NCBI RefSeq assembly: GCF_014635185.1
Contig: NZ_BMCM01000001.1
Coordinates: 496,001 to 560,000, forward strand
Length of the DNA stretch: 64,000 nucleotides
Direction: 5' to 3'
DNA from: Microbacterium murale
GTDB lineage: Bacteria; Actinomycetota; Actinomycetes; Actinomycetales; Microbacteriaceae
Shown here piece after piece: positions 46,223-64,000 of this stretch (position 1 is its first letter; each line of letters begins with the position of its first letter). The notes beneath the pieces were generated by a model. It was not told the DNA's origin. It did not search any database and saw only the letters and a program-made list of their open reading frames with translations. Made by a program: the position numbers and the translations under genes.

Positions 46223-46876
46223 GTGAGGGCACGAACGACGTTCGGCGCACTTCGCCTTGCCACGGCGGCCTTGTGCCTCACTGCGCTCGTTCACCGGTTG
46301 TTCTGGGGCCTGAGCTCGCAGACGATCGCCGGGCGCAACTTCTTCGCGTACCTCACCGTCGAATCGAACTGCGCACTCGTCGTCCTGCTCGTGATCGGCG
46401 GCGTCCTCGCTTTCCGACGCGACGACGATCCGCGGTGGTTCAGCGTCGCCCTCTCGCTCGTGCTCACGTGGACGATCACCGCGGGGCTCGCATTCGCGCT
46501 CATCGTCTGGCAGGCGGGGCTCCGCGGCATCCGCGTCGACGTGCCGTGGTCGGATCAGGTGCTGCACTTCTGGCTGCCGGCGTTCACCGCGATCGCATGG
46601 ACGCTCACACCGGGGCACCGCTCCGTGCCGTGGTGGATCATCCCCGGATCCCTGGTGTTCCCGCTCGTGTGGGGCGGCGTGACGATGTGGCGCGGGCCGA
46701 TGATCGGCTGGTACCCGTACTACTTCCTCGACCTGCGCCAGGTGAGCGGGATCGGCGAGTTCCTGCTGACGAGCGCGCTCGCCCTGGCGATCTTCGCGCT
46801 CATCGCCACCGTGCTCGCGGTGATCAGCCGGGTCAGCCCGTCGCGGCGGAAGGCAGGAAGAGCTCAAGCGATGTGA
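46223..46876 (+). CDS. Pr6Pr-family integral membrane protein
   Basis: A 217-residue protein with six predicted helices and the family's F-x-x-L-T-V-x-S-N motif (NFFAYLTVESNCALVVLL), HFWLPAFTAIAW and YPYYFLDLRQVSGIGEFLLT. GTG start with AAAGGGGAGG about 9 nt upstream. The biochemical role of Pr6Pr proteins is unknown. Its last 44 bp overlap the 3' end of the convergent amine oxidase gene. Confidence 0.85.
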   Translation: MRARTTFGALRLATAALCLTALVHRLFWGLSSQTIAGRNFFAYLTVESNCALVVLLVIGGVLAFRRDDDPRWFSVALSLVLTWTITAGLAFALIVWQAGLRGIRVDVPWSDQVLHFWLPAFTAIAWTLTPGHRSVPWWIIPGSLVFPLVWGGVTMWRGPMIGWYPYYFLDLRQVSGIGEFLLTSALALAIFALIATVLAVISRVSPSRRKAGRAQAM

Positions 46877-48221
46877 GCGCCGACAGTAGTGCGCCCTCCT
46901 CCTTGAGCTCTGCGAACGTCTCCGCGTCGTCTCCGCCGACGATGCCCACCAGCAGATTCTCTCCGGTGACCGGAAGCAGGTTGATCCAGGTCCGCACGGC
47001 CACCGTGTTCTCCAGCACCAACCCGCCGTCGACGCTCTGCTGATCGCCCACGACGTGCCAGATCGTCGCCTCGGTGTCCCAGAACGGCTCGTCATAGCGC
47101 AGCCAGATCGTCTCGATATGGCCCATGCCGAGGGCGTTCAACGCGCCACGATGGGCGAAAGGCAGCGGTGGGGCGAACTCGATGCCTTCGCGTTGCAGCA
47201 CGCCGAGCGGAACGGTGACCACGACCCGGTCGAACGACGTCGACTCCCCTGTTCCGAGCCGCAGACTGACGCCTGAGTCGTCGTAGGCGATGCGGGTCAC
47301 GGGCGAGGACAGCGTCAGCTGGGCATCCCCCAGCCGCTCCTGCACGAACGCCGTGAGATCTCCGATGAACCCTTGCGCGGCGGCGAGCGGCATCGCAGGG
47401 GGGAACCAGGCTGAGAGCTTCTCCGCTTCGGCCCCCGTGGTGGTCGCGAGGTACGCGAGCAGCGCGGCGAGAGTCGGCTCTTCCGGGTCCGCGCCTGTCG
47501 CGGTGAGAGCCTCGGTCAGCGAGACATCGGCCGGGAGCGCCTGCGCCGCCGCGATCGCGCTCTCGAGCGGCGCGTTCACCGGGGGCTCGATAGCACCCTC
47601 GGCTGAACGCCACATCGCGGTCGCCAGTTCCACCGTCTCGGCGAGGGCGGCGGTGTCATCGTCCGCCCCGACCAGCCATCCGCCGAGCTGCACGGGCAGC
47701 GGCCAGTCGTCGTCGATCTCGGAGTGGATGCGTCCGCCGACACGATCGCGCGCTTCGAAGACGGTCACCTCGACGTCGAGGTCGGCGAGATCAGCCGCGA
47801 CGGTCGCGCCGGCGAGACCCGCGCCGATCACGGCGATGCGCTCGCCTGCTTCCACGGTGGCACGCAGTCGCATCGCCGCGCTCTCACCCGAGTGGATGGC
47901 GCCTCGCATCGTGCCGGGGTTGTCGACGTCGGTCGCCTCGCCGGCGAAGTAGACCCGCCCCTGGACGGGCTCAGCAAGCGTCTGGCGCGTGGCGGACTGC
48001 ACGCCGATGCGCGTGTAGCTCACAGCACCGCGCGAGAACGGGTCGGTCGCCCATTCGCTGCGCATGCTCGCGGCGGGCGTGGGCACCTTCGTCGTCGGCA
48101 GCGGAGTCGGGGTGCGCGTCGGGGTGCGCGTCGGCGCCGGCTCAGGGGTGCAGGAAACAAGCAGCACGCCGAGAGCGCCTGCTCCGGCGCCGATCAGCAG
48201 CTCGCGACGCGTCATCCTCAT
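46833..48221 (-). CDS. Flavin-dependent amine oxidase, circularly permuted
   Basis: A 462-residue secreted lipoprotein: twin-arginine-type signal TRRELLIGAGAGALGVLLVS with lipobox Cys24, then a Thr/Pro linker. The elements usually at the C-terminus of monoamine oxidases, WATDPFSRGAVSY (57-69) and FAGEATDVDNPGTMRGAIHS (92-111), come first; the FAD Rossmann motif VIGAGLAG (131-138) and FEARDRVGGR (155-164) follow. The protein ends at the point where the missing C-terminal segment would begin. All core motifs are present, so it may be active. Substrate unknown. Confidence 0.85.
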   Translation of the reverse strand: MRMTRRELLIGAGAGALGVLLVSCTPEPAPTRTPTRTPTPLPTTKVPTPAASMRSEWATDPFSRGAVSYTRIGVQSATRQTLAEPVQGRVYFAGEATDVDNPGTMRGAIHSGESAAMRLRATVEAGERIAVIGAGLAGATVAADLADLDVEVTVFEARDRVGGRIHSEIDDDWPLPVQLGGWLVGADDDTAALAETVELATAMWRSAEGAIEPPVNAPLESAIAAAQALPADVSLTEALTATGADPEEPTLAALLAYLATTTGAEAEKLSAWFPPAMPLAAAQGFIGDLTAFVQERLGDAQLTLSSPVTRIAYDDSGVSLRLGTGESTSFDRVVVTVPLGVLQREGIEFAPPLPFAHRGALNALGMGHIETIWLRYDEPFWDTEATIWHVVGDQQSVDGGLVLENTVAVRTWINLLPVTGENLLVGIVGGDDAETFAELKEEGALLSALTSLELFLPSAATG

Positions 48222-49684: not shown

Positions 49685-51319
49685 TCAGACCGCGACGTCG
49701 CCGATCAGGTTCACCTTGATGCCCATGCCGTCGAACATCGCCGCCTTCGCGATGAGCGCCTTGTCGGCGGTCTCGGCATCCGGAGCATAGACGAGCTGCG
49801 CGTGGTTCGCCTTGTGGCGTGCCATGAACTGGTCGCGCGAGACGCCGTGCAGCACGACGTGCGCGAGCGGCCATTCCTCGTTCGTCGCCGCCTTGCGGCG
49901 CTCGGTCTCCGCAGCCGGCAACTCGACGACTGATGCGCGGAAGATGTCGGCCTGAAGGATGCCGTCGGCGATGAACACGCGCGAGAGCACGATCTCACCG
50001 GGCTTGGAGACACCGTTGAGGGTGGCGCCGCCGGCCGGGAAGAAGACGTGACCCTGACGCCATCCCTCCGCCTTGTCCCAGCCGCCGAGGTGCGAGGCCG
50101 GCACCGAGCCGGAGATCTCGTACGCCCAGACGAACTGGCCGTCGTACTCCTCGCCCCAACGCACGTCGTGCAGCGTGTTGTCCGGCACGAGACCCATGGC
50201 CCGCCACACGCGATCGGTCACCAGCGCGTCGACCGCGACGCCCTCGTCGGCCTCGTTGAAGTGCGGGAAGGCGCGGCCTTCGTGCAGCACCCGCGACCCG
50301 TCGCGCGAGGTCACCGGAGGGCGCTCGGTGGAGTTCAGGATGCCTTCAGCGAGGTCGGATGCGGGGACGAGGTCCTTGAGACCCTGCTGGTACTGGATGC
50401 CGACAGCATCCAGACCGAAGTCGTCGGCGATGCGCAGGGCGGCGATGTACATCTTCATCTGCCACTGCACCTGCTCGCGGGTGAGCTCAGTGGTGCCGTC
50501 CTCGCCGTAGCGGAAGGTCATGCCGTGGTCGATGAGCCAGTCGTAGGCGGCATCCGCCTCGTCCTCCCGCACCTGAAGCATCTCGGCGTACAACGCCGAC
50601 TGCGACAGCCGCTCCTTGTAGATGCCGGTCTGGTTGAGCAGTTCGTCGTCGAAGATGGCGTTGTACATGCCCATGCAGCCCTCGTCGAAGACGCCGATGA
50701 TGGCCTTCTCGTCGCGCAGTTGCGCTGCGAGCGCCTCACCGAGCTGCTTCTCTGGGCTGTCAGGCAGGGCCGGCAGTTCGCGCACGTGCGAGTAGTCGTG
50801 GGTGATCGTGCCGGTCTCGATCCACTCCTGGATGGTCGCCTTGAACCAGTCGTCGGAGAAGTCGACCGACCAGGTCGACGAGTAGGGCTTGCCCATCTTC
50901 GTGAGTCCGGCGTTCAGGCCCAGCAGGCCGACCAGCCCCGGCCAGTCCGGTGCGAAGTTCGCGGTCGTGAGGATCGGGCCCTCGTGCGTGCGGAGCCCCG
51001 CGAGCACGTGGTGCGAGTACTGCCAGTTGGCGATCGCGACGATCAGCGGGGCGTCGGTCGGGATGTTCTTGAAGACCTCCATGCCCATGCGCTGGCTCGA
51101 GATGTAGCCGTGGCCGGTCTCCGGATCGACGTCGAATGCGCGGATGACGTTCCAGCCGAGCTCGTTGAAGACGCCGGTGACGCTGACCTCGAGCGCGGCC
51201 TGCGTCGCCCATCCGCCAGTGTTGGCGGCCTCACGCAGGTCACCGGAGGTGATCAGGTATGCGGTCTTCGGGGCGGATGCCGGGCGGGATGCCGCGGCGG
51301 GAAGGGTGTAGGTGCTCAT
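49685..51319 (-). CDS. L-fucose/D-arabinose isomerase-family protein
   Basis: A 544-residue FucI-like enzyme: VFDEGCMGMYNAIFDDELLN, DDFGLDAVGIQYQQGLKDLV and the C-terminal HKANHAQLVYAPDAETADKA with His where FucI binds metal. Fucose isomerases also turn D-arabinose into D-ribulose, which fits the adjacent arabinan-type hydrolases. It is last in a minus-strand operon and overlaps the GH116 stop (4 bp). D-arabinose as substrate is inference. Confidence 0.8.
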   Translation of the reverse strand: MSTYTLPAAASRPASAPKTAYLITSGDLREAANTGGWATQAALEVSVTGVFNELGWNVIRAFDVDPETGHGYISSQRMGMEVFKNIPTDAPLIVAIANWQYSHHVLAGLRTHEGPILTTANFAPDWPGLVGLLGLNAGLTKMGKPYSSTWSVDFSDDWFKATIQEWIETGTITHDYSHVRELPALPDSPEKQLGEALAAQLRDEKAIIGVFDEGCMGMYNAIFDDELLNQTGIYKERLSQSALYAEMLQVREDEADAAYDWLIDHGMTFRYGEDGTTELTREQVQWQMKMYIAALRIADDFGLDAVGIQYQQGLKDLVPASDLAEGILNSTERPPVTSRDGSRVLHEGRAFPHFNEADEGVAVDALVTDRVWRAMGLVPDNTLHDVRWGEEYDGQFVWAYEISGSVPASHLGGWDKAEGWRQGHVFFPAGGATLNGVSKPGEIVLSRVFIADGILQADIFRASVVELPAAETERRKAATNEEWPLAHVVLHGVSRDQFMARHKANHAQLVYAPDAETADKALIAKAAMFDGMGIKVNLIGDVAV

Positions 51320-53904
51320 GATTCCTCCGGGGTTGGGGTCTGTGGAAGTCGCGCGGTGTGAGATTCACCGGCGACGAGTCGGATGCTGCGGGCGATGCTC
51401 TCGCCGCGAAGCAGCAGTTCGTCGATGTCGAGGGTTCCGCCGTCGAGGCGCAGGGTGAGTCCGGATGAATCGATCTCGACTCTCCCCCAGCCCGAGCCCG
51501 TCGTGAACAGGCTGCGCAACGGTTCGTTCACGTCGCCGGCCGGGGCGAAGGCGAGAGTGCGCGCCGGCGCATCCCACTGCGCTCCGCTCGCGCCGAGCAG
51601 CAGCGCCCACGATGCGAGGGAGCGCGCGTAGTGGTTGCCGCACTCGATCTCGTTCCAGGGGTTTCGATGTGCGCCGTCATAGCGTGCCCGCAGCGCACGT
51701 TCGACGAGCAAGGCGTCGTCGAGACGATCGGCGAACAGCAGCGAGGCTGCGACCTGATGCTCGATCCCGGTCCAGACCTCGTCCGAGTAGACGAACGGAA
51801 TGGCCGGCCGGCCGCCGTTCGGCCACGACGCGAGCAGCAGGCCACCCTCGTCGTTCAGTGCGTAGACGCGCTGGGTGCTCTCGTGCGCGGAGAGATCGGA
51901 ACGATGGTTGTGGCCGACGATGGCTGCGAGCGCGGAGTCGACATGCTCCTTGGGCAGGATGTACCCGAGCCCGCCGACGAAGGCGTGGAACTGTCCGAGC
52001 AGCTGATCCGAGAGCACGCCGTCGCCGTACTGATAGCGGTGGCTGTCTGGATCATCTATGACCTGCCGGTAGTACTCGCCGTTCCACAGCACGGCGTCCA
52101 TGGCCGCCGCGACACGGTCGGCCTCGGCCGCCCACGACTGTGCTTTCTCGCTCTCGCCGAGGTGAGACGCCATGCGCGCTCCAGCTCGTAGAGCGGCAAG
52201 GTAGACGCCGTTCGCCAGCGGCTCGATGCCGTGGAACTCGATGTCGTAGGTGTTGTGCAGCTCGCCGTCGAGCAGGCCGTCGCCGTCGCGATCCCACTCG
52301 CTAGCGGCATAGTCGAGCGAGCGGGATGCCGCGGGCCAAAGTTCGGTGAGGAAGTCGTCGTCGCCGCTGAAGCGCCATTCGCGATGCAGGCGCAGGAGCG
52401 TGCCCAGCTGGCCGTCCACCGCCGGCCCCATGAACCATGACGGTCCGCCGAAGATGCGATTGCCGCGGAACTTCTGTGCACCGGAGTCATCGGTCTCGAG
52501 CAGATACTCGGCCCGGCGTGCGCTGCGCTCGAGCGCAGGGAACAGCCATGCGAGCGTCTGCGCGTACGACCACACGTGCGTGCAGGTCCCCTCGCACGAC
52601 CCAGAGTGATCGAACGACCCCTCCCAGGCGGCGAAGACCGGGCCGTCGCCGAGATCGGGGTTGGGCGATTCCAGCACGAAGGCGGTCGTCGAGCGGATCG
52701 CGGCGATGTTCGCGCCGATGGCATCGGTGAGCGCGGGGTCGAGGCTGCCGCCGTACAGCGCGTCGACGAACGCTTCGGTGCTCTCTTCGAGTGCAGGAAG
52801 ATTCGCGTGCAGGTGCGCAGCGGCCGACCAGGCGTCCGGCCAGAGCGTCGCGTAGCGGTTCTTGACGACGCCGGAGGCCTCCGCATCAGCGGCGACGATG
52901 TGGCCATGCCAGCCACGCGATCGGTTCGGGAAACTCCACGACAGCACGAACTCGAAGTCGACGCTCTCGCCCGGCGCGATGGTGTGCACGATGCCGAGGG
53001 ATCCGGTGCGGATGCGTGGGAGCCGCGCCATCATCTGCTCTTCGGTGAAGGTGCCATCGGCCGCATCATCGAGCTCGGCGAACAGGCCGCGCGGACGATC
53101 TTCGAGCGTCAGTCGGGGCTCAGGTGCGAGCATCCCGTCGTCGGTGAGATCGTTCCAGAACAGGCGTGCCCCATCGGGCCAGTAGCTCGTGACCCATTGC
53201 GGTTTCACGGTGGTCGCGGCATCCGTCGTCGTGAGACTCAGCGTTCCATAACCGGGGTCGACGTTCGGCAGGTCGATGCTGAAATCGAGTCCCCGGACGG
53301 CTCCGTCGTCTCGCCACTGCACGGATTGAGTACCGCGCATGCCCCACGGCGCATTTGTGCCCGGCTTCGCGCGGCCGGCGGTGTGCGACATGCTGCCGAC
53401 GACCGTGACGGCGGCCGGGGTCGTACCGGGATTCGTGACGCGGTAGCGCAGCACCGCGGCGGGGATTCCGGATGCGTCGGAATCCAGCGGAACGAACGGC
53501 GTGAAGGCGTGCAGCGTCACATCGACCGGCAGCACCTCATCGGTGAAGTCGACATCGACGACGGGATATTCGCCGTGCAGCGTCGCGGAATCCAGCCGCG
53601 GGAGCCCGGCGAGCTGGTCGAAGGCGTATCCGGCATCCGCGTCGTGGCGACCCTCGAGCCGCGCCTCGAGCACTCGTGTCACCGCCGGCCCATCTTGCGG
53701 AGCGGCATGGATCGCGAAGAACGAGTGCGGGTTGCGCCTGCCCTTGTCCGGCAGGTTCTCGAACTCCCAATCGCGCAGCTCGCCTCGCGCACCGATCGAC
53801 ACGTTCCCGGTGCCGATGCCGCCGAGCGGAAAGGCGGTCGCCTGGGAGGTGTGCGGGATGCCGCGCGCGCGACGTGGGTCGTCGCCATGTCGCCGCTCAC
53901 GCAT
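51316..53904 (-). CDS. GH116-family glycoside hydrolase, possible exo-beta-D-arabinofuranosidase
   Basis: An 862-residue GH116 protein: an N-terminal beta-sandwich (about 30-380; TAFPLGGIGTGNVSIGARGE is the family start) and a C-terminal (alpha/alpha)6 barrel with FAAWEGSF, ELHNTYDIEFHG, RIFGGPSWFMGPAVDGQLGT and GNHYARSLASWALLLG. No signal peptide, so cytoplasmic. GH116 holds beta-glucosidases and beta-xylosidases, and a Microbacterium member acts as exo-beta-D-arabinofuranosidase, matching this locus. GAGGAG supports the start at 53904, overlapping the kinase stop by 8 bp. Confidence 0.85.
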   Translation of the reverse strand: MRERRHGDDPRRARGIPHTSQATAFPLGGIGTGNVSIGARGELRDWEFENLPDKGRRNPHSFFAIHAAPQDGPAVTRVLEARLEGRHDADAGYAFDQLAGLPRLDSATLHGEYPVVDVDFTDEVLPVDVTLHAFTPFVPLDSDASGIPAAVLRYRVTNPGTTPAAVTVVGSMSHTAGRAKPGTNAPWGMRGTQSVQWRDDGAVRGLDFSIDLPNVDPGYGTLSLTTTDAATTVKPQWVTSYWPDGARLFWNDLTDDGMLAPEPRLTLEDRPRGLFAELDDAADGTFTEEQMMARLPRIRTGSLGIVHTIAPGESVDFEFVLSWSFPNRSRGWHGHIVAADAEASGVVKNRYATLWPDAWSAAAHLHANLPALEESTEAFVDALYGGSLDPALTDAIGANIAAIRSTTAFVLESPNPDLGDGPVFAAWEGSFDHSGSCEGTCTHVWSYAQTLAWLFPALERSARRAEYLLETDDSGAQKFRGNRIFGGPSWFMGPAVDGQLGTLLRLHREWRFSGDDDFLTELWPAASRSLDYAASEWDRDGDGLLDGELHNTYDIEFHGIEPLANGVYLAALRAGARMASHLGESEKAQSWAAEADRVAAAMDAVLWNGEYYRQVIDDPDSHRYQYGDGVLSDQLLGQFHAFVGGLGYILPKEHVDSALAAIVGHNHRSDLSAHESTQRVYALNDEGGLLLASWPNGGRPAIPFVYSDEVWTGIEHQVAASLLFADRLDDALLVERALRARYDGAHRNPWNEIECGNHYARSLASWALLLGASGAQWDAPARTLAFAPAGDVNEPLRSLFTTGSGWGRVEIDSSGLTLRLDGGTLDIDELLLRGESIARSIRLVAGESHTARLPQTPTPEES

Positions 53905-55408
53905 GGGACGCTCCTCGTTGTTCTGCCGCAAGTTCGTGGGCGACGTCTTTCGTGCCTTCATACAGCCGCACGTAGCGATCGAAGAGCGTGTCGTAGAAAC
54001 TGCGGAGGTCGGGGTTCGGCGTGATGGTCTGCGTGATCGGGTTCCAATCGGCGATCGCGGGTGCCGCACCGTCGGCGGCGATGGCGGATGCAGCGAGGAA
54101 TGCGGCACCGTAGCTGGCGCCGATCGTGGTCGCCGGCACCTCCTGCACGAGGCCGGTCACATCCGAGATGACCTGAAGCCAGAGCTGCCCCTGCGTTCCG
54201 CCGCCGACCGCGACGATGCGGCGGATGTCGGCACCCGCAGCCCGCATGGTCTCGACGTTGTGGCGCACCCCCAGCGCGGTCGCCTCGAGTGCGGCGCGGT
54301 ACAGATCGCCTCTGCCGTGCTCGAGCGTGAGCCCCGCGACGATGCCGCGGGCGTCGGGGTCCTGAATGGGCGTACGCTCCCCTGCGAAGTACGGCAGGAT
54401 CAGCAGGCCTCTGGCGCCCGCGCCCGAGGCTTCGGCCTCAGCGAGGAGTTCCGGATAGTCGGATCCGGTGAGGTCTTTGAGCCACGCGGTGAGTGCGCCG
54501 GAGGTGGAGAGTCCGCCTGCGAGGTTGCGCGTGCCGGGGAACGCCCCGGCCGTGGTCCACATCGACGGCGTGCGCAGCGTCTCCGCGCCGGTCGCGACGA
54601 GAAACATCGTCGTGCCGTACATGAGCATGAGATCGCCGACCTCGTGGGCGCCGACGCTGACCGCCTCAGTCCACGCATCGATCGTCCCGGTGATGACCGG
54701 TGTGCCCGCCGGGATGCCGGTGAGAGCTGATGCCGCGGCTGTCACCTCACCCGCGATGTCGCCCGCCCAGGTGAGTCGCGGCTGCGCGATCGTGCCGGCG
54801 TACCGCTGCCACCACGGGTCGTACCAGGTCTCGTTCTCGATGTCGTAGAGCGGAGACGTCTGACTCGCGGACTGGTGGTCGAGCACATAGGCGCTGGTGA
54901 GCTTGCGGGCGAGCCAGGATGCCGGCATGAAGAAGCGCCGGGCGTCGGTCCACGCATCCGGTTCCTCGTCGGAGATCCAGGCGATCTTCGCGCCGCCCGC
55001 CTGAGAGGTCAGGGTCGATCCGCCGACGCGGGTGATCTCGTCGATGCCGAGTTCGTCCGTCATGCGCGCGATCTGGGCACCGGAGCGCGTGTCGACGCCG
55101 TAGAGGATCGCGGGTCGCACGGGCTCGTCATCGGCGTCGGCGAGCAGCACGCACGGGCCCATCCCGCTCACGCCGACGGCGGTGATCTCCGCATTTGGAT
55201 GCGCCGTGGTCAGCTCATTCGCAATACTCACGAACTCGTCCCACCAGATGTGCGCATCCATCTCGACCCATCCGGTGTGGGGACGGTCGACCTCGTGGGC
55301 ACGTGTTGCGGATGCCAGGATCCTGCCATCCTTTGCTACCAGTACGCCCTTCGTGCTCGACGTTCCTACGTCGACTCCGAGTGTGTACTTTGCGGCGTCA
55401 TTCGTCAT
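53897..55408 (-). CDS. FGGY-family sugar kinase
   Basis: A 503-residue carbohydrate kinase: N-terminal phosphate loop LGVDVGTSSTKGVLVAKDG, GVSGMGPCVLLADADD, the catalytic-Asp region TGTIDAWTEAVSVGA and C-terminal ILPYFAGERTPIQDPDARGI, IVAVGGGTQGQLWLQVISDV. It resembles xylulose/gluconate-type kinases. In context a D-ribulokinase acting on the isomerase product is likely. ATG overlaps the stop of the DUF4185 gene (ATGA). Confidence 0.88.
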   Translation of the reverse strand: MTNDAAKYTLGVDVGTSSTKGVLVAKDGRILASATRAHEVDRPHTGWVEMDAHIWWDEFVSIANELTTAHPNAEITAVGVSGMGPCVLLADADDEPVRPAILYGVDTRSGAQIARMTDELGIDEITRVGGSTLTSQAGGAKIAWISDEEPDAWTDARRFFMPASWLARKLTSAYVLDHQSASQTSPLYDIENETWYDPWWQRYAGTIAQPRLTWAGDIAGEVTAAASALTGIPAGTPVITGTIDAWTEAVSVGAHEVGDLMLMYGTTMFLVATGAETLRTPSMWTTAGAFPGTRNLAGGLSTSGALTAWLKDLTGSDYPELLAEAEASGAGARGLLILPYFAGERTPIQDPDARGIVAGLTLEHGRGDLYRAALEATALGVRHNVETMRAAGADIRRIVAVGGGTQGQLWLQVISDVTGLVQEVPATTIGASYGAAFLAASAIAADGAAPAIADWNPITQTITPNPDLRSFYDTLFDRYVRLYEGTKDVAHELAAEQRGASHA

Positions 55409-57060
55409 CGATCTGCTCCTGCCCCGGCTGGCCGGTCGGCTCGTCCTGTGAAGTGCACGGCGAGCTCCGAGATCGACGTGCAGTGCCGCCCGCCGCCGGC
55501 CGGGCCGGCGATGCGGATGCCGTCGGCGTCGACGGCCGGGAACTCGAAGCGGAACTCGCAGAAGCCGGTGGCGCTCGGGTCGCACGGGTACGCCGGAACG
55601 ATACTGCAGCCGGGCGCATCGAACCATTGGCCGTCGATGCGAACCTCCACCCTCGGCCCCTCGGTAAACCAGCCGCCGGTGTAATCACGCGGACCGGAGG
55701 TGAGAACGACAGTGTCCATCCGCATGGCCCGCGGCCAGGTGTATCCCCAGACGTCGGCCGCTCGCACCAGCCCGTTCCAGCTCTCCTCGCTGCGACTGGT
55801 GTCGCCGTCGTTGAGAATCTCCACCCGGCCGCGTCGCGCAGCCGAGACGACCGGTACGACGCCGGTGGAGGGGTCGGCGAGATTCCTGCTCGCGTCCGCG
55901 ACATTGATGGGCCGGCCGGACCGGTAGGGTGTGAGCGTCATCCGGCGCAGCGAGAACCGGTAGGTCGTCCCCGTGTACGAGTCCGAGCCGACGAACCAGT
56001 TGCTCTGGATCCACATCTCGAGACCGTCGTCGCTGATGAACTTCGACGGCATGGTCGTAGCGTAGCCGCCGTGCTTGGCATGCGGGCTCAGGGGGCCGTC
56101 CCATGGGTAGGGTCCGAAGTCCTGCTCATGGAACAGCTCCCACGGCCCCCACGGCTGAGGCGACGAGTAGAACTGGAACGTGAACTCCGTCCACGACGTG
56201 TAGAAGTAGCGCTTCAGCGGTGCGTTATAGACGACACCGCCCTGCCCCAGAACGGAATGGCCGCCCGCGCCCATCTCGGTGTTCTCGTCGTACAACCGCC
56301 TCGTGTCGGTGAGGACGGGCACCCTCGAGTCCTGGCCGGCATCCCACACGGGTACGCCGTCGGCGTCGAGGCCAGCGAAGTACTGCCACCGGCCGATGTC
56401 CTGGATGGCGTCGATCGGCACCCGTGCGAGGAACAACTCCGTCGGGTCGGGCACGACCCGGCTGTACGACGTGCGCCAGTTGCCGTCGAGACCGTAGGCG
56501 TAGGCGTACCGGGCGCCGTCGGATCCGAGGACCGCTGACCCGCTGTTGCTCTGGCCGAAGTCGAGGAACATGATCGTGGTGAACGCGTAGTCCGTGAACA
56601 TGGGCTGCGCGGTCGCGATCCAGGTGCACCCGTGATCGTCGGAGCGGACGATGCTCGCGGATGGGACGTGGTCGAAGGCGCCGCGGGCGTCTCCGTACGC
56701 GAGATCCTGCACGGCGAGGTAGAGCTCGTCGCGGCCGTCGCCGTTGCCGTCGACCGCCAGCATGCCGGTCGGTTTGCTGTTGTAGACAGCCGGATCTCCC
56801 CACACCGGGCTTACCGCACGCTCGGCCGCCAGTCGCTCTCCGGTGATCCCTTCCGCAGGCGTGCCCTCCACCCTGTTCACGACGACGTCACCGAACGCGC
56901 CGTCCGAGAACCCGGCACCGTCACCATTGGCCGTGTACAGGTGGCCGTCGTCCGCCCACGCCGAGGGCCAGAGATCGCCGTCGCTGTCGCTGCCGACGGA
57001 TTCGCCGTACTCGACCTCGACAGTGGCGAAGCCCGCACGAGCGGCCGGATCGGGGATCAT
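55405..57060 (-). CDS. DUF4185 (GH183-type) protein with C-terminal beta-sandwich, non-secreted
   Basis: A 551-residue protein. Residues 15-390 are a DUF4185 five-bladed-propeller-like domain sharing DGDLWPSxW, LYTANGDGAGF, DPTELFLARVP, SWTEFTFxFY and PWGPWE with the paralogue at 62631. Residues 400-551 look like a discoidin/carbohydrate-binding sandwich (GWFTEGPRVEVRIDGQWFDA). Unlike the paralogue it has no signal peptide, suggesting action in the cytoplasm. DUF4185 enzymes are endo-D-arabinofuranases (GH183). AAGGA favours start 57060 over 57078. Confidence 0.78.
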   Translation of the reverse strand: MIPDPAARAGFATVEVEYGESVGSDSDGDLWPSAWADDGHLYTANGDGAGFSDGAFGDVVVNRVEGTPAEGITGERLAAERAVSPVWGDPAVYNSKPTGMLAVDGNGDGRDELYLAVQDLAYGDARGAFDHVPSASIVRSDDHGCTWIATAQPMFTDYAFTTIMFLDFGQSNSGSAVLGSDGARYAYAYGLDGNWRTSYSRVVPDPTELFLARVPIDAIQDIGRWQYFAGLDADGVPVWDAGQDSRVPVLTDTRRLYDENTEMGAGGHSVLGQGGVVYNAPLKRYFYTSWTEFTFQFYSSPQPWGPWELFHEQDFGPYPWDGPLSPHAKHGGYATTMPSKFISDDGLEMWIQSNWFVGSDSYTGTTYRFSLRRMTLTPYRSGRPINVADASRNLADPSTGVVPVVSAARRGRVEILNDGDTSRSEESWNGLVRAADVWGYTWPRAMRMDTVVLTSGPRDYTGGWFTEGPRVEVRIDGQWFDAPGCSIVPAYPCDPSATGFCEFRFEFPAVDADGIRIAGPAGGGRHCTSISELAVHFTGRADRPAGAGADR

Positions 57061-57082
57061 CTTGTTTCCTTCTGTCATGAGA

Positions 57083-57907
57083 TCAGCCCTTGAGCGCGCC
57101 CGCCAGTGTGCCGGTGATGAACTGACGCTGGAAGATCAAGTAGACGATCAGTGGCGGAGCCATCACGATGAAGGTCGCCGCCGCGAGACTGGGCACGTCG
57201 ATCGAGTGCTCACCGACGAAGTAGCCGAGTCCGGCCGGCGCAGTGCGCATCTCGGAGTTCTGTATAAGCACCAGGATGAGCAGGAACTGGTTCCAACTCC
57301 AGATGAACGTCAGGACTCCGAGGGTCGTCAGTGCCGGTCTGGCACCCGGAACCAGCACTCGCCAGAGGATCTTCCAATCTGTGGCGCCGTCGATCTGCGC
57401 GGCTTCGATCAGTGCTCGCGGAACGCTCCGGAAGTACGCCGTCATCCAGAACACACCGAACGGGATGAACAGCCCGATCTCGCTGAGGATGATCGGCCAA
57501 TACGATCCGATGAGACCCAGCGACTGAAAGTCGAAGTAGAGCGGGATGATGATCATCTCGACGGGCACGGTGAGTCCGAGGATGAGATACAGGTAGAGTG
57601 CGCTGCGTCCTCGGAAGGTCATCGTCCCGAATGCGAAGCCGGCGAGGATCGAGATGAGCAGTGTAGCCGGAACAACGCATAGCAGGATCAGGAAGCTGTT
57701 GCGGATGAGGAGCGCGAAGTTCGCGTCCGTCCACGCCCGCGCGAAGTTCTCCCAATGCGGGACTTCGGGCCACTGCACACCGCTGACGAGCGACCCGGCC
57801 GGCTGAAGCGACGCGAGGGCGAAAGCGCCCAGCGGGGCGAGGGTAACGAAGGCGATCAGCACGAGGAAGAGCGTGCTGATCGGCTGCGCGCGCCTGAGCC
57901 GTCTCAC
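57083..57907 (-). CDS. Carbohydrate ABC importer permease, MalG type
   Basis: A 274-residue permease with six helices and the EAA loop ALIEAAQIDGATDWKILWRV with LVPGARPAL. TM1 is LFLVLIAFVTLAPLGAFALA. With the next permease and the binding protein it makes a CUT1-type sugar importer; no ATPase gene is in the window, so a shared MsiK-like subunit is presumably used. Start overlaps the previous permease stop (ATGA). Confidence 0.92.
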   Translation of the reverse strand: MRRLRRAQPISTLFLVLIAFVTLAPLGAFALASLQPAGSLVSGVQWPEVPHWENFARAWTDANFALLIRNSFLILLCVVPATLLISILAGFAFGTMTFRGRSALYLYLILGLTVPVEMIIIPLYFDFQSLGLIGSYWPIILSEIGLFIPFGVFWMTAYFRSVPRALIEAAQIDGATDWKILWRVLVPGARPALTTLGVLTFIWSWNQFLLILVLIQNSEMRTAPAGLGYFVGEHSIDVPSLAAATFIVMAPPLIVYLIFQRQFITGTLAGALKG

Positions 57908-58809
57908 GATTCCGCTCCACTTCGATCGATCTTGTTCACGAGAACCACGTACAGTCCGGTGATGACCATGAGGCAGATCGCCAGCGCCGAAGCGGCGCCG
58001 ATCTCACCGGTCGTGAATGCCAGTCGATAGACCAGCAAACCCGGGACGGTCGTCGAATTCCCCGGCCCGCCCCTGGTCGCGATGAAGATGAGGTCGAACG
58101 TGGCCAATGCGGCGATGCCGGTGATGGATGCCGCGAGCGCGATCTCGCGCCGCAGACTCGGAAGCGTGACGGCGAAGAACTGCCAGATCCGCCCTCCCCC
58201 ATCGACGGTGACCGCGTCGTACAGTCCGGAATCGATCTTCTGCACTCCTGTGAGAAAAAGCGTTAGACACACTCCGTAGAGCGCCCACGTGCCGACCAGC
58301 CCGATCGCAGGCAGTGCAGTGGTGAAGTTGCCGAGCCAGCCTTCGACCGGCCCGGCGATCCCGAAGAACCCCAGCGTGGAGTCGACGACTCCGTCGGCGT
58401 TGTACATCCAGCGCCAGATGATTCCGACGGCGACCAGCGGCACGACCTGAGGAAGGAAGTAGACGGTTCTCAGCACGGTCAGCCCAGGGCGCGGTCCCGG
58501 TCCGATGAGCGCGGTGACGAGCAACGCGAGCAGAATCGGCAGCAGAGTGAAGAAGAACAGCAGCACCAGTGCGTTTTTCAGCGCGCCGAGCAGCAGTGGA
58601 TCCTGGACCAGCGCTAGGTAGTTGTCCACGCCCGCCGATGTCGCCGCAGTCAAGCCATCCCAATTGACAAAGGAGAGGTACAGCGTGTGCAGCCCGGGCA
58701 AGACGATAAGCAGCGTGAAGATGATGACGGCCGGCAGCACGTAGAAGTACGCCGACCGCTGCGTGCGCCGAAAGCGACTGTTTCGCCTCCTGTTACTCGT
58801 GATACTCAC
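57904..58809 (-). CDS. Carbohydrate ABC importer permease, MalF type
   Basis: A 301-residue permease with a basic N-terminus (RRRNSRFRRTQRSAYF) and six helices; EAA loop at GLYDAVTVDGGGRIWQFFAV. The GTG at 58809, with AGAAGG 7 nt upstream, overlaps the binding-protein stop by 17 bp; an in-frame upstream extension has no site and an atypical sequence. It is the second pore subunit of the CUT1 importer. Confidence 0.9.
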   Translation of the reverse strand: MSITSNRRRNSRFRRTQRSAYFYVLPAVIIFTLLIVLPGLHTLYLSFVNWDGLTAATSAGVDNYLALVQDPLLLGALKNALVLLFFFTLLPILLALLVTALIGPGPRPGLTVLRTVYFLPQVVPLVAVGIIWRWMYNADGVVDSTLGFFGIAGPVEGWLGNFTTALPAIGLVGTWALYGVCLTLFLTGVQKIDSGLYDAVTVDGGGRIWQFFAVTLPSLRREIALAASITGIAALATFDLIFIATRGGPGNSTTVPGLLVYRLAFTTGEIGAASALAICLMVITGLYVVLVNKIDRSGAES

Positions 58810-60130
58810 TCCACGCCTTCTGTACGTCGGCGGAGAAGTCCTCCGGGGTGCTGTTTCCGGCGAGAACCAGCTGCAGACCGCCGGTGAGCACATCGAGCAG
58901 CGCAGGGGCAGACTGATCCGGGAAAATCACGGCGCCGTCCGCTTCGGCGAGCCGCGCGTATGCATCCGCGATGTCGGCGTTCACGCCTTCCAGCCCATCG
59001 TTGCCTTCGGGATTGAGGGACAGATTGCCGGTCACCGTCACTCCGGGCGCAGCCTCCTTCGAGTAGAGGAAGTCGAGGAACGCCACGGCCGCCGTGGGGT
59101 GCTCGGTCTTGGCCGACACCGAGAAGGCGGCCACCGAGGCGGTCGCGACCTGCGGCCATGAGGCTTCGTCCATGGGCAGGAGGAAGAAGCCGACGTCGTC
59201 ACCCAGGCTCTCCTCGAACGCATTGGCATTCCAGGAGCCCGTGATGAGGTAGGCGCTGGAGCCCGCGGCGAACTTCGCAGCGGCATCCGCATCGCCGGTG
59301 CCGTTGGCTGACGGAAGGTAGTAGCCCTCCGAAGCCCACTCCTGCATGGTCGCGGCGGCATCGGAGATGGTCGACGAGATGTCTGCACCCTTCTGGCCGA
59401 AGAGCCAGGAACGCAGGTCGTCCGAATCCGAATGCGCGTTGAGGACCGCGGCGAAGTTGTGGATGCCGCCGAAGTCGAGGGCCCCGAGCTGGAGGGGCAA
59501 CGAACCGCTCGCCTTGACCTTCGCGAGCGCGTCTTCAAAGTCCGCGAAATCAGCGGGCACCTCGGTCACCCCCGCAGGCTCGGTGAGACCCTTGTTGTAG
59601 AACACTCCGACGAGGGGCACGGTGCTCGGGGCCGCCAGCAGTGACCCTTCGCCCATGGTCTTGCCGTCGGCGCTGAAGCGTGTCTGGTCAAGCAGCGAGC
59701 CGGGGATGACATCCGCCCAGCCATAGGCCTCTTCGTAGGGTGTGAGGTCGAGGATCAGGCCCGCCGCACCGAGCTCACGCACCGGCGTGTTGTACTGCAC
59801 GATGTCCGGCGGGTTCTCGGACTGCATGACGAGCTTGATGGTCTTCTGATAGTCGGATGCCTCGGTGTATTCGTGCTCGACGTTCACCTGCGGATATTGC
59901 TTCTCGAAGGCCTCGATGACCATTTCCATCGACTCGCTGTTGTCCCAGTCGGCAACCCTGAGCGTCACTTCTTCGTCCGGAACCTCGGTCGAGACCTTCT
60001 CCGATCCGCCGCCAGAATTCGACGCGGTCGGGGTGAGGAAATTGCAACCTGCGAGCGTTCCGGCGGTGATGAGAGCAAGGGCTCCCGTAAGAAGCACGCG
60101 TCGAACCTGTCGTGAGCGCTGTGCGAACAT
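58793..60130 (-). CDS. Sugar-binding lipoprotein of the ABC importer (family 1)
   Basis: A 445-residue solute-binding protein: signal VRRVLLTGALALITAGTLAG with lipobox Cys32, then TLRVADWDNSESMEMVIEAF and YPQVNVEHEYTEASDYQKTI, the usual CUT1 pattern. Start 60130 has AAAGGA 6 nt upstream. It is the first gene of the seven-gene minus-strand operon downstream of lacI, and is anchored on the outer face of the membrane. Arabino-oligosaccharides are its likely ligand by context. Confidence 0.9.
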   Translation of the reverse strand: MFAQRSRQVRRVLLTGALALITAGTLAGCNFLTPTASNSGGGSEKVSTEVPDEEVTLRVADWDNSESMEMVIEAFEKQYPQVNVEHEYTEASDYQKTIKLVMQSENPPDIVQYNTPVRELGAAGLILDLTPYEEAYGWADVIPGSLLDQTRFSADGKTMGEGSLLAAPSTVPLVGVFYNKGLTEPAGVTEVPADFADFEDALAKVKASGSLPLQLGALDFGGIHNFAAVLNAHSDSDDLRSWLFGQKGADISSTISDAAATMQEWASEGYYLPSANGTGDADAAAKFAAGSSAYLITGSWNANAFEESLGDDVGFFLLPMDEASWPQVATASVAAFSVSAKTEHPTAAVAFLDFLYSKEAAPGVTVTGNLSLNPEGNDGLEGVNADIADAYARLAEADGAVIFPDQSAPALLDVLTGGLQLVLAGNSTPEDFSADVQKAWSEYHE

Positions 60131-60241
60131 GTGGATCCTTTGACGATGTGCCGTCATCTCTGAGGGCATGGACTCGGGCTGGACGAAACGAACGGCGTTC
60201 AGAGAACGGCATCGGTCGACCTGCGTCACAAGTATTGAGCA

Positions 60242-60332
60242 TGAAATCGATTTCGTCAACTGGCGAGCGACGGTCACGAGGAAGCAGCCGCCGAAGGTCA
60301 GAGGACTGTCGCGCTGGATGGAAACCGATTAC
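60242..60332. promoter_or_regulatory. Two LacI operator boxes upstream of the sugar importer
   Basis: GAAATCGATTTC (60243-60254) is a perfect palindrome and GAAACCGATTAC (60321-60332) a weaker relative. Both fit the AATCGATT LacI centre and the third box at 61406-61421. They lie in the 211-bp gap between lacI and the binding-protein gene. Confidence 0.7.
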
Positions 60333-60341
60333 GGACGTTCG

Positions 60342-61325
60342 TCAGCGCGGGACGCTGGCCGCCCGCAGTTCGTTGCGCAGTACGACCGTGCGCGAGGGCT
60401 GCTCGTCGCCGCCAATCCGCTCCAGCAGCATCTTCGCCGCCGTGACCCCCATGTGACGTGCGGGCAACCGAACGACCGTGACGGCCGTGGGCGAGAGAGT
60501 CGTGAACGGCAATGAACCGATGACGGCGACACCGACCCTAGGAGGCGTGAGCCCGTGCTCGGTGAGCACCTGGATCGCACCGACACCGATGAGGTTGTTG
60601 CCGGCGACGACGGCGTCAGGCGGCTCCGGCATCGAGAGGAGCTCCTCCATCGCGGCGCGACCGCCGTCGACGCGGAAGGTCGCGAAGCGCAACAGCGCTT
60701 CGAGGTCGGCATCGGGCTGCGCGTGAGCGAGCGACGCTCGCCAGCCGGACGCACGCTCGGCAGCCGTGTCGATGTGCTCCGGCCCGCCGATGTACGCGAT
60801 TCGCTGATATCCGGCGTCGATCAGTGCCCTCGTCGCCGACGCTCCCGCAGCACGATTGGCCATCACCACGCCGTCGACGTCGTAGGTCGTGCTGCGGTCG
60901 ACGGCCACCACGGGCCGACCGGTCGCCAGAATCAGATCGAGATCAGACTGCTCGGAGGCGGTCGCGATGATCACGCCCGACATGTTCTCGGAGATCGCGA
61001 TCTGCAGATACGTCGATTCCTTGTCGACCTGCGCGTCAGTGTTGCACAGCACCACCGAGTAGCCGGCCTCCGACGCGACATCTTCGACTCCACGCGCCAT
61101 TTCGGTGAAGTACGGGTTCTCGATGTCGGGGATGATCAGCCCGATCACCTCGGAGCTCTGCCGGCGCAGCGTGCGCGCTGTGCGGCTCGGAACGAACTTC
61201 AACTCCTTCGCAGCATCGCGCACGGCCTTCGACTTCTCGACGGAGACGCTCGTACCGTTGAAAACGCGTGAGACAGTCGCCGGAGACACGCCGGCCAGCT
61301 CTGCGACGTCATAGATCGTGGTCAT
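60342..61325 (-). CDS. LacI-family transcriptional regulator of the arabinan locus
   Basis: A 327-residue repressor. HTH and hinge at 1-60: TIYDVAELAGVSPATVSRVF, NGTSVSVEKSKAV, FVPSRTARTLRR. The periplasmic-binding-like domain has VIGLIIPDIENPYFTEMARG and GVGAIQVLTEHGLTPPRVGV. Start 61325 (ATG, AGGGTGG upstream) is preferred over the GTG at 61337. It sits between the two arms of the locus with palindromes on both sides, so it likely represses both, sensing an arabinose-related sugar. Confidence 0.92.
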   Translation of the reverse strand: MTTIYDVAELAGVSPATVSRVFNGTSVSVEKSKAVRDAAKELKFVPSRTARTLRRQSSEVIGLIIPDIENPYFTEMARGVEDVASEAGYSVVLCNTDAQVDKESTYLQIAISENMSGVIIATASEQSDLDLILATGRPVVAVDRSTTYDVDGVVMANRAAGASATRALIDAGYQRIAYIGGPEHIDTAAERASGWRASLAHAQPDADLEALLRFATFRVDGGRAAMEELLSMPEPPDAVVAGNNLIGVGAIQVLTEHGLTPPRVGVAVIGSLPFTTLSPTAVTVVRLPARHMGVTAAKMLLERIGGDEQPSRTVVLRNELRAASVPR

Positions 61326-61405
61326 GCCCACCCTCACTGCATACTCCGGCCGAACCGGGCGTGATGCAACAGTATCGCGCGTAGGGCGTTTTGTGGCGCG
61401 TAGGC

Positions 61406-61421
61406 CTGAAATCGATTACAG
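61406..61421. promoter_or_regulatory. LacI operator box upstream of the GH172 gene
   Basis: CTGAAATCGATTACAG is a 16-bp near-palindrome (14 of 16) centred on AATCGATT, 69 bp before the GH172 start. It is close in sequence to the perfect box at 60243-60254. Confidence 0.7.
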
Positions 61422-61490
61422 TGGTGACGATCTCGCTGCACCGGCATCGCCGCTGCACATCCCACATAGACACAAGGACGTGAAGAAGAG

Positions 61491-62624
61491 ATGACTCTCG
61501 CACCCTCCGATCTGGCAACGATCGCGGCCCTGCGCCCGGTTCAGACCCGATCGATCTCGCCGGAGAACTTCGATGGTTCCGTCGGCGGAGGCGGGCGGGC
61601 GACTGAGGGCACGGGCGCGGAATGCGCTCGCGATCTCGGCGCCGGCTGGAAGATCTCGCCGAGCGTCGACATCAAGGCGGGCGAGACGTTCGACCTCGCG
61701 AACATCCAGGGCGCGGGCAAGATCACCCATATCTGGATCACGACCCATACCGACAACTGGCGCACACTGCTGCTGCGCGCCTACTGGGACGGCGCGGAAG
61801 AGCCCGCCGTCGAGGTGCCGTACGGCGACTTCTTCTGCAACGGCTGGGGCGTGTTCGCACAGGTGAACTCGCAGACCATCGCCGCCAACCCGCACGGTGG
61901 TTTCAACTCCTACTGGCCGATGCCGTTCCGCGAGAGCGCCCGCCTCACGGTCGAGAACACCTCTGACCTTGACGTTCGCGTCTACTACCAGGTCACGTAC
62001 GAGATCGGCGGCGATTACTCCAACGACGCCTATTTTCACGCGCAGTGGCGCCGGTCGAACCCGCTCGAGGACAAGACCCCCCACGTCATCCTCGAGGGCA
62101 TCGAGGGTCAGGGACAGTACGTCGGCACCTACATCGCCTGGGGCGTGAACTCCAACGGCTGGTGGGGCGAGGGTGAGATCAAGTTCTACCTCGACGACGA
62201 CACCGACTATCCGACGATCGCCGGCACGGGCACCGAGGACTACTTCGGCGGTGCGTGGAACTTCGATATACCAGGCAAGGGCTACACCGAGTTCTCCACC
62301 CCCTACCTCGGCATGCCTCAGGTGATCAAACCCGACGGCCTGTACGTGAGCCAGCAGCGCTTCGGCATGTACCGCTGGCACCTGCTCGATCCGATCCACT
62401 TCACCACCGGCATCCCCAAGGTCGACATCCAGGCTCTCGGATGGCGCAGCGGATGGCGTTACCTGCCACTGCGTGACGACATCGCCTCCACTGCCGTGTT
62501 CTACCTCGACCGGCCTACCGCTCGCCGCCCGAGGACGCCCAGCGCCGACGACCTGGAGGTTCACTTGGCGACGGGTCCGGTCCCTGACATCGGCGCGACG
62601 CCTCCCCGCGCACCGCGGGACTGA
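61491..62624 (+). CDS. DUF2961 (GH172) glycoside hydrolase, possible exo-alpha-D-arabinofuranosidase
   Basis: A 377-residue GH172 protein, normal length. Diagnostic GTGTEDYFGGAWNF (holds a catalytic Glu), ITHIWITTHTDNWRTLLLRA, YGDFFCNGWGVFAQVNSQTI and NSYWPMPFRESARLTVEN are present. There is no signal peptide, so it acts in the cytoplasm. Family members are alpha-D-fructofuranosidases/difructose-anhydride enzymes and exo-alpha-D-arabinofuranosidases that act on mycobacterial arabinan. It starts the plus-strand arm of the locus; the next gene follows after 6 bp. Confidence 0.88.
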   Translation: MTLAPSDLATIAALRPVQTRSISPENFDGSVGGGGRATEGTGAECARDLGAGWKISPSVDIKAGETFDLANIQGAGKITHIWITTHTDNWRTLLLRAYWDGAEEPAVEVPYGDFFCNGWGVFAQVNSQTIAANPHGGFNSYWPMPFRESARLTVENTSDLDVRVYYQVTYEIGGDYSNDAYFHAQWRRSNPLEDKTPHVILEGIEGQGQYVGTYIAWGVNSNGWWGEGEIKFYLDDDTDYPTIAGTGTEDYFGGAWNFDIPGKGYTEFSTPYLGMPQVIKPDGLYVSQQRFGMYRWHLLDPIHFTTGIPKVDIQALGWRSGWRYLPLRDDIASTAVFYLDRPTARRPRTPSADDLEVHLATGPVPDIGATPPRAPRD

Positions 62625-62630
62625 CGGCCG

Positions 62631-63752
62631 ATGCGCCGGACCGTCGCGATGGTCGCGCTCACTGCGTCGATTATGTTCACCGCCGGTTGCTCGACAGCGG
62701 GCGGTTCTGGAACAGGCGGAGACACGGGGCCGTTCTCGGCCGTCATCGAGGATGCACCCACCGCGATCGGGGTCTCCGATGGCGACCTCTGGCCCAGCTG
62801 TTGGTCGGACGACGACGCCCTCTACACGGCGAACGGCGACGGCGCGGGGTTCGGAAACGAGTTCAGCGACATCGTAATGAACCGGGTCACCGGCACCCCG
62901 GCATCCGACGATCTAGAAGGCGAAGGACTCGCACTCGGCGATGAGCTCGGCCAGGTGTGGTCGGGCGAGGGGTTCACGCGCAAGCCGACCGGCATGCTGT
63001 GCACGGACGGCACGATCTTCCTGGCTGTGCAGGATCTGGCTCGGGATTTCAATGCCGCTCCCGCCGCAACGATCGCGCACAGCGACGATCACGGCCAGAC
63101 CTGGAAGTGGGACACGGCCGCGCCGATGTTCGACGACGGCGTGTTCACGACGATCTGGTTCGCTGATTACGGTCAGGACGCGGCATCCGCCCCCGACCCC
63201 GAGTACGCGTACGCCTACGGACTCGACGGCAACTGGCGCGACTCGTTCTCGGACGTCGTGCCAGACCCCACCGAGCTGTTCCTTGCTCGAGTGCCGGTCG
63301 ACTCGGTGCAGGATGCCGCGGCGTGGCAGTTCTACGCCGGCGAACCGGGCGATGCCGAGGCGACCTGGACCGGCGACATCGCCTCGAAGCGTCCGGTGCT
63401 GATCGACGAGCGACGCCAGCATGATCTGAGCGTCATCTCGCAGGGCGGCGTGACGTATCTGCCGAAGCACGACCGTTATGTCTATACGTCCTGGACGGAG
63501 TTCACATTCGAGTTCTACGAGTCGCCGACTCCATGGGGACCGTGGGAGCCGTTCCTGACGGAAGACTTCGGGGAGTACCCATGGGATGCAGAGCAGATCG
63601 GCGGGTACGGCACGACGATCCCCTCGAAGTTCGTCTCAGAGGACGAGAAGACGATGTGGGTGCAGTCGAACGTGTGCCCATGCGCGCCGGCGGGTACCAC
63701 CTCGTACTGGTTCGGGCTGCGCGAGATGACGCTGGAAGATTCCGCCAAGTGA
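62631..63752 (+). CDS. DUF4185 (GH183-type) lipoprotein, probable extracellular endo-D-arabinofuranase
   Basis: A 373-residue protein with signal MRRTVAMVALTASIMFTAGC (lipobox Cys20), thus a surface lipoprotein. The rest is a DUF4185 domain with GDLWPSCWSDDDALYTANGD, HSDDHGQTWKWDTAAPMFDD, DPTELFLARVPVDSVQDAAA and SWTEFTFEFYESPTPWGPWE. DUF4185 proteins are endo-acting D-arabinan hydrolases. It is smaller than the paralogue at 55405 because it lacks the C-terminal sandwich. 6 bp after GH172, 15 bp before an SDR gene. Confidence 0.85.
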   Translation: MRRTVAMVALTASIMFTAGCSTAGGSGTGGDTGPFSAVIEDAPTAIGVSDGDLWPSCWSDDDALYTANGDGAGFGNEFSDIVMNRVTGTPASDDLEGEGLALGDELGQVWSGEGFTRKPTGMLCTDGTIFLAVQDLARDFNAAPAATIAHSDDHGQTWKWDTAAPMFDDGVFTTIWFADYGQDAASAPDPEYAYAYGLDGNWRDSFSDVVPDPTELFLARVPVDSVQDAAAWQFYAGEPGDAEATWTGDIASKRPVLIDERRQHDLSVISQGGVTYLPKHDRYVYTSWTEFTFEFYESPTPWGPWEPFLTEDFGEYPWDAEQIGGYGTTIPSKFVSEDEKTMWVQSNVCPCAPAGTTSYWFGLREMTLEDSAK

Positions 63753-63767
63753 GACGAGGATGACGAC

Positions 63768-64000
63768 ATGACCGACGCAACCTATCCAGATCTTGACTGC
63801 AAGCTCGCCGTCGTCACCGGCGGCGGCCGCGGCATCGGGCTCGCGACCGTCCGGCGGCTGCTCGATCAGGGCGCGCGGGTCATCGTCGTCGACCTGAACA
63901 TGACGGTCGGCGATGTCGGTCAGGCGGATGCGGATGGCTGGCAATCGGTGAGCGGTGAGGTCGAGCTCGACTTCGTGCGCGTCGACGTGACGGATCCGGA
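63768..64000 (+). CDS. SDR-family oxidoreductase, N-terminal fragment
   Basis: Starts MTDATYPDLDCKLAVVTGGG with the TGxxxGIG nucleotide loop (TGGGRGIGLATVRRLLDQGA) and an NAD-preferring Asp after strand 2 (VIVVDLN). The catalytic Ser-Tyr-Lys lies beyond the window edge. ATG is 15 bp after the DUF4185 stop, so it is part of the plus-strand arm; oxidation or reduction of an arabinose derivative is possible but unproven. Confidence 0.85.
   Translation, partial: MTDATYPDLDCKLAVVTGGGRGIGLATVRRLLDQGARVIVVDLNMTVGDVGQADADGWQSVSGEVELDFVRVDVTDP

Follow-up and report, generated by a model that had tools for sequence, protein, structure and literature searches.

A probable D-arabinan degradation locus in Microbacterium murale carries an inserted importer and a GH183 protein without a signal peptide

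The closest described system for the degradation of mycobacterial D-arabinan is the polysaccharide utilization locus (PUL) of Microbacterium arabinogalactanolyticum. According to the main text of PMC10509167, this PUL holds four DUF4185 (glycoside hydrolase family GH183) genes, GH172 and GH116 genes, an ATP-binding cassette (ABC) importer, and a putative isomerase and kinase. The hydrolase and solute-binding protein (SBP) genes are induced by D-arabinose and by mycobacterial wall extract in quantitative reverse-transcription PCR, and a pathway to D-ribulose 5-phosphate is proposed there. PUL42 of Dysgonomonas gadei (PMC10115798) also combines GH172 and GH183 enzymes for D-arabinan, but it is a Bacteroidota PUL in which, per PMC10509167, no exo-beta enzyme has been characterized. 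Here, we analyze a 64,000-nucleotide stretch of Microbacterium murale (hereafter, the window; G000:C1:496001-560000 of a 3.9 Mb genome), in which a sequence-only reading had placed a D-arabinan locus at 49685-64000. The named genes are present there, and the locus extends about 14 kb beyond the window end. With a probability of about 0.88, the locus serves growth on D-arabinan of the mycobacterial type under its own LacI control and has received an inserted module of an importer and a GH183 protein (GH183a).

The strongest grounds for D-arabinan as the probable substrate are the closeness of the two exo-enzymes to ExoMA2 and ExoMA1 and the residues that they keep. The GH116 gene (51316-53904, minus strand) encodes a predicted exo-beta-D-arabinofuranosidase of the ExoMA2 type (GH116 subfamily 4), which matches PDB 8ic6/8ic7 with 1523.8 bits. 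In ExoMA2, Glu431 is the nucleophile, Asp557 is the acid/base, and Arg483 and His446 set the recognition of arabinofuranose (Araf) (PMC10509167). Residues E428, D554, R480, and H443 of the M. murale protein align with E431, D557, R483, and H446 of ExoMA2, respectively. The GH172 gene (61491-62624, plus strand) encodes a predicted exo-alpha-D-arabinofuranosidase of the ExoMA1 type, which matches PDB 8ic8 with 808.8 bits. Two Glu residues, E227 and E249, are present, which we take to be the GH172 catalytic pair. Residue N257 corresponds to N253 of ExoMA1, which blocks fructofuranose (PMC10509167). The same Asn occurs in most GH172 frames among 80 named loci in a motif count; therefore, the Asn alone is a weak test of specificity.

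GH172 also includes alphaFFase1, with which the window protein shares a distant similarity (122.6 bits). The locus might thus be for a different furanoside (difructose dianhydride or fructans, for example), used through a GH172 of the alphaFFase1 kind. However, the score to ExoMA1 is 808.8 bits, the window protein has Asn where alphaFFase1 has Gly299, and GH183 and ExoMA2-type GH116 genes are in the same locus. A locus for such furanosides is highly improbable, and we reject GH172 as a fructan or difructose dianhydride enzyme in view of the Asn/Gly position and the bit scores.

D-arabinan also fits the gene set conserved in the genus. A GH116 search of 367 genus genomes gives a match in 64, including M. 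murale itself. G368 and G613 (split GH116 matches) and G466 (34% match) were left out, and 60 other loci were mapped, 55 longer than 31 kb and five shorter; the M. arabinogalactanolyticum genome is not among the 60. The isomerase and GH116 are found in 60/60 loci, lacI and GH172 in 58/60 each, and the kinase in 49/60. Relatives of GH183a, GH183b, the short-chain dehydrogenase/reductase (SDR), and the lactonase are found in 9/60, 16/60, 7/60, and 3/60 loci, respectively. Close PDB relatives, kept active-site residues, and this gene set support the proposals of D-arabinan degradation and cytoplasmic exo-cleavage, which remain predictions of activity. The link of hydrolases to an importer, isomerase, and kinase had been thought possibly new, but it is already in PMC10509167.

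Both loci, that of M. murale and that of M. arabinogalactanolyticum, hold GH183, GH172, and GH116 together with an ABC importer, an isomerase, and a kinase. In M. murale, by contrast, the canonical importer is followed by a GH127 gene, and an additional importer together with a GH183 lacking a signal peptide is inserted between lacI and the kinase. The terms 'GH127', 'LacI', and 'regulator' are absent from the main text of PMC10509167, a statement that does not extend to its gene-map figure. The D-arabinan locus type is already known; judged against the 60 congener loci, the parts that appear new are the extra importer with GH183a, and GH127.

On the minus strand, the window genes run in the order SBP, two permeases, GH183a, FGGY kinase, GH116, and FucI-like isomerase, with lacI preceding them; the plus strand carries GH172, GH183b, and the SDR. 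The SBP gene (58793-60277, start probably near 60130; PF01547, PF13416) encodes a lipoprotein with an LAGC lipobox, and the two permease genes lie at 57904-58893 (start probably near 58800) and 57083-57907 (both PF00528). Together with GH183a, these genes form the insert. Counterparts of the window SBP (at least 30% identity) and permeases (at least 35% identity) are found in 0/60 congener loci, as is the case for GH127, indicating that both are additions. The canonical importer, which lies outside the window here, is found in 55/55 long loci and in 56/60 overall. Therefore, the window importer is ruled out as the standard arabinan importer (0/60 versus 55/55); what had been read as the dedicated importer is an extra one.

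Past the window, a gene pair with ABC-transporter membrane domains and then a lactonase-like gene are followed, on the minus strand, by GH127, two permeases, an SBP, the EndoMA1-like GH183, and a second GH183. No separate importer ATPase gene is recognized among the locus genes run through Pfam. One gene with a MalK C-terminal domain is present at another site of the genome (C4:307423), and its product may power the importers.

A shared operator joins the insert to the rest of the locus. The lacI/GH172 gaps hold the palindrome TGNAATCGATTNCA, with one box in 58/58 congener gaps; in M. murale the box is TGAAATCGATTACA (61407-61420, 0 mismatches), upstream of the LacI-family gene (60342-61337, minus strand; PF00356, PF00532). 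With up to one mismatch, the operator occurs at seven places in the whole genome, and a control pattern at 0. Five of the seven are in the locus. In addition to 61407, a box precedes the extra SBP (TGAAATCGATTTCG, 60242-60255, one mismatch), and in extended coordinates three boxes beyond the window precede the canonical SBP (74759) and the two GH183 genes (76864 and 78086). LacI-mediated repression and induction of the locus are predicted. The congener kinase/lacI gap holds exactly one box in 47/47 cases. In M. murale, the GH183a/kinase junction shows no operator, even at two mismatches. The box at 60242 sits in the spacer of a promoter-like TTGACG-17-AATACT (60231-60259, minus strand), and its single off-consensus base is at the opposite end relative to the box of the conserved kinase promoter. 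The kinase promoter is apparently replaced by, or rebuilt into, an operator-bearing promoter for the insert. The junctions from the SBP to the isomerase are gaps or overlaps of a few bases, taking the second permease start near 58800. As the insert stands behind a promoter-like site with a LacI operator, the row of seven genes from the extra SBP through the two permeases, GH183a, the kinase, and GH116 to the isomerase is probably a single operon.

A DUF4185 search of the whole genome gives four matches, two in the window and two beyond it. The GH183 genes most like EndoMA1 lie outside the window: one matches PDB 8hhv with 451.8 bits over residues 85-566, including the binding domain, and the other scores 152.7 bits. 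In 28/60 congener loci there is a further GH183 with about 30% identity to the EndoMA1-like protein. GH183a and GH183b have no PDB relative by single-sequence search. GH183b (62631-63752, plus strand; PF13810, 48.8 bits, above cut-off) has a hydrophobic signal stretch with a lipobox-like AGC at its end and is a probable lipoprotein, as the sequence-only reading had it. In GH183a (55405-57078, minus strand), hydrophobicity analysis, which is not a trained signal predictor, finds no secretion signal, whereas EndoMA1 and EndoMA2 have one. Five of eight other full-length Microbacterium GH183a copies also have no hydrophobic stretch; in the remaining three, the only such stretch is part of an extension overlapping with the gene before it. 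GH183a is probably cytoplasmic.

The predicted model of GH183a is a five-bladed propeller like that of EndoMA1, with 21-22% identity in structural alignments (PDB 8hhv and 8ic1). Its beta-rich C-terminal domain, a difference from EndoMA1, is unmatched in the sequence search. Residues D35, D53, and Q279 (GH183a numbering) are invariant in 15/15 aligned sequences of GH183a/b and relatives. D35 and D53 are matched to the nucleophile Asp33 and the acid/base Asp51 of EndoMA1 by motif and the same 18-residue spacing; they lie outside the hhalign match, and the assignment is one of motif and spacing rather than of residue-level structure alignment. At the apparent position of Glu243, the third essential carboxylate of EndoMA1, GH183a and GH183b have Gln. 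In a motif count (rows include duplicates; those below 150 bits were dropped), the Q motif is found in 42/42 GH183a/b rows, and the E motif in 44/45 ENDO1-class and 55/55 ENDO2-class rows; 15 ENDO-class rows also hold the Q motif somewhere, and one GH183b row also holds the E motif. Hhalign joins the GH183a/b and ENDO groups with 99.4% probability and a gap at the Glu243 spot, so that the equivalence of Q279 and Glu243 is an ungapped motif reading.

This Gln, if correctly placed, lowers the claim of endo-D-arabinanase activity, but not the claim of a GH183 fold. GH183a and GH183b might be catalytically altered, binding or handling arabinan rather than hydrolyzing it. In accordance, the Gln motif replaces the Glu motif throughout the group, and EndoMA1 E243Q is nearly inactive, as reported in PMC10509167. 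However, both catalytic Asp residues are invariant, and substitution of a Glu in DgGH4185b of D. gadei broadly kept activity, as reported in PMC10115798, with the sameness of the two Glu residues being an assumption. We consider the loss of hydrolysis improbable.

Several observations weigh against the D-arabinan reading of the locus with its insert. With Gln at the apparent Glu243 position, GH183a and GH183b may be weakly active or act on another substrate. The promoter pattern is found once against 0.8 expected in that 7 kb, which by itself is chance level. The flanks of the box at 60242 differ from the conserved kinase promoter region, indicating that the site is not simply the old promoter kept. 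The relatives of the extra SBP also point elsewhere. Proteins 39-44% identical to it occur in other families of the class (16/344 other genomes drawn), and proteins 34-41% identical elsewhere in the genus genomes (15/361 other genomes drawn, E 1e-60); searches of the class, the genus, and plasmids found no donor for the importer. We read the surroundings of ten SBP relatives (38-44% identity; 17 kb each, one cut to 14 kb), with Pfam run on ten proteins chosen from these loci. In all ten loci, the SBP is accompanied by one or more permeases of the same kind. Arabinan genes are found in 0/10, and an alpha-N-acetylglucosaminidase (NAGLU) gene in 4/10 (L289, L293, L296, and L297), two of which also hold a GKRP/SIS-domain gene. 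Gfo/Idh oxidoreductases are found in two others (L291 and L292). The background of the importer family thus points to other sugars, and what would tie the extra importer to D-arabinan is only its operator and its operon position. As side observations, L297 also has a ROK regulator, and the family perhaps consists of amino-sugar glycan importers.

The core might accordingly serve D-arabinan, while the inserted importer and GH183a are only co-regulated with it and handle a different sugar, such as an amino-sugar glycan. That the canonical importer is still present, and that GH183a has Gln at the third active-site position, would agree with such a division. The insert, however, is in a tight gene row with the kinase, GH116, and isomerase behind an arabinan operator, and nine other Microbacterium D-arabinan loci hold a GH183a relative. 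We regard separate substrates as unlikely, though well worth keeping in mind, and prefer an insert that serves D-arabinan with the core.

The last gene of the probable operon (49685-51319, minus strand) encodes a FucI-like aldose-ketose isomerase. Its PF02952 match (E 3.5e-8) is above the cut-off, and a single-sequence search finds no PDB relative. Escherichia coli FucI and the window isomerase have in common the PF02952 C-terminal domain and His528, which hhalign aligns with H506. The two are 28% identical in a MAFFT pair alignment, and the N-terminal FucI Pfam domain is not among the Pfam matches of the isomerase. The other metal ligands of FucI, which we take to be Glu337 and Asp361, were placed by eye at E356 and D385, a placement that hhalign does not support. 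The FGGY kinase (53897-55411, minus strand; PF00370, PF02782) is XylB-like, with 300.5 bits against an equivalog cut-off of 380.25, and no listed NCBIfam equivalog reached its cut-off. We propose that the two enzymes convert D-arabinose to D-ribulose and then to D-ribulose 5-phosphate, an earlier suggestion to which the relatives, the kept residues, and the conserved gene set lend support.

An oxidative D-arabinose route via the SDR, the lactonase, and a DHDPS-family aldolase was set aside, because no sugar-acid dehydratase is found among the neighboring genes run through Pfam and the SDR (63768-64000, on to about 64559, plus strand; PF13561) looks like a polyol dehydrogenase. Its top two PDB rows are polyol and galactitol dehydrogenases.

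The GH127 gene (PF07944, PF20736) is the last in the canonical importer gene row. The protein matches a solved GH127 beta-L-arabinofuranosidase with 57.8 bits, and its E-T-C and C-C motifs, presumably the zinc-Cys site, align with those of that enzyme. GH127 adjoins GH172 in 2/80 named loci (L047, Paenibacillus dokdonensis; L064, an Acidobacteria metagenome-assembled genome), and a paralogue with 41% identity is present elsewhere in the host genome. In L012 (12065-13189), the further GH183 mentioned above lies directly 3' of the canonical permeases, where the host has GH127. A zinc-bound catalytic Cys is mentioned in PMC10728902, and none of the papers in the collection searched combines 'd-arabinofuranosidase' with 'GH127'. 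Tentatively, and with low expectation, we suggest that the cytoplasmic Gln-type GH183 and its own acquired importer finish larger or decorated D-arabinan inside the cell, and that GH127, as a member of this regulon, targets a linkage or substituent of D-arabinan as yet unassigned to the GH127 family.

In the pathway that we propose, secreted GH183 enzymes (two beyond the window and the lipoprotein within it) would cut D-arabinan outside the cell. The oligosaccharides would enter via the ABC importers, probably powered by an ATPase of the MalK/MsiK type encoded elsewhere. In the cytoplasm, GH172 would take off alpha-D-Araf and GH116 beta-D-Araf, and the released D-arabinose would be isomerized to D-ribulose and phosphorylated to D-ribulose 5-phosphate. 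Because the inserted importer and GH183a are in one probable operon with the kinase, GH116, and isomerase, larger arabinan pieces could also be imported and cut inside.

Several neighboring features and related clusters were also observed. The closest named locus is that of Microbacterium aerolatum, which is located at the same genomic site, as judged by a neighbor sharing its N-terminus with the gene at 46833-48221 and by a TetR gene with 84% identity. Just past the locus (L008:15110-19879) are a Pfam-less gene, a DHDPS-family aldolase gene, and Tct tripartite transporter genes; N-termini similar to that of the Pfam-less gene occur beside the locus in L011, L013, L031, and L022. A second GH172 gene in the genome (L010:9299-14733, G000:C7), 49% identical to the window copy, is near LacI and SBP genes, with an ISL3-type transposase close by. 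On the haloarchaeal plasmid NZ_CP083667.1 of Haloprofundus halobius, a GH183a-like gene, whose product is 46.7% identical to GH183a over 95%, and a GH172 gene occur together (L283:11025-12878 and 18939-20027). The cluster also holds genes for an ABC importer with its ATPase, an SDR, an amidohydrolase, and a member of the mandelate racemase family; it possibly serves D-arabinofuranoside use in an archaeon through an oxidative sugar route.

As the locus type is known, what the M. murale locus adds is narrow. The conserved importer sat outside the window, showing that an importer beside hydrolases is insufficient to name the importer. The insert exemplifies how a transport module can enter a catabolic operon and come to stand behind the same operator. 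This LacI operator delimits the regulon, so that other genomes can be searched for it. The locus also provides a candidate intracellular GH183 group and, for GH127, a candidate new role. Enzymes for dismantling mycobacterial arabinan are useful in studies of the mycobacterial wall.
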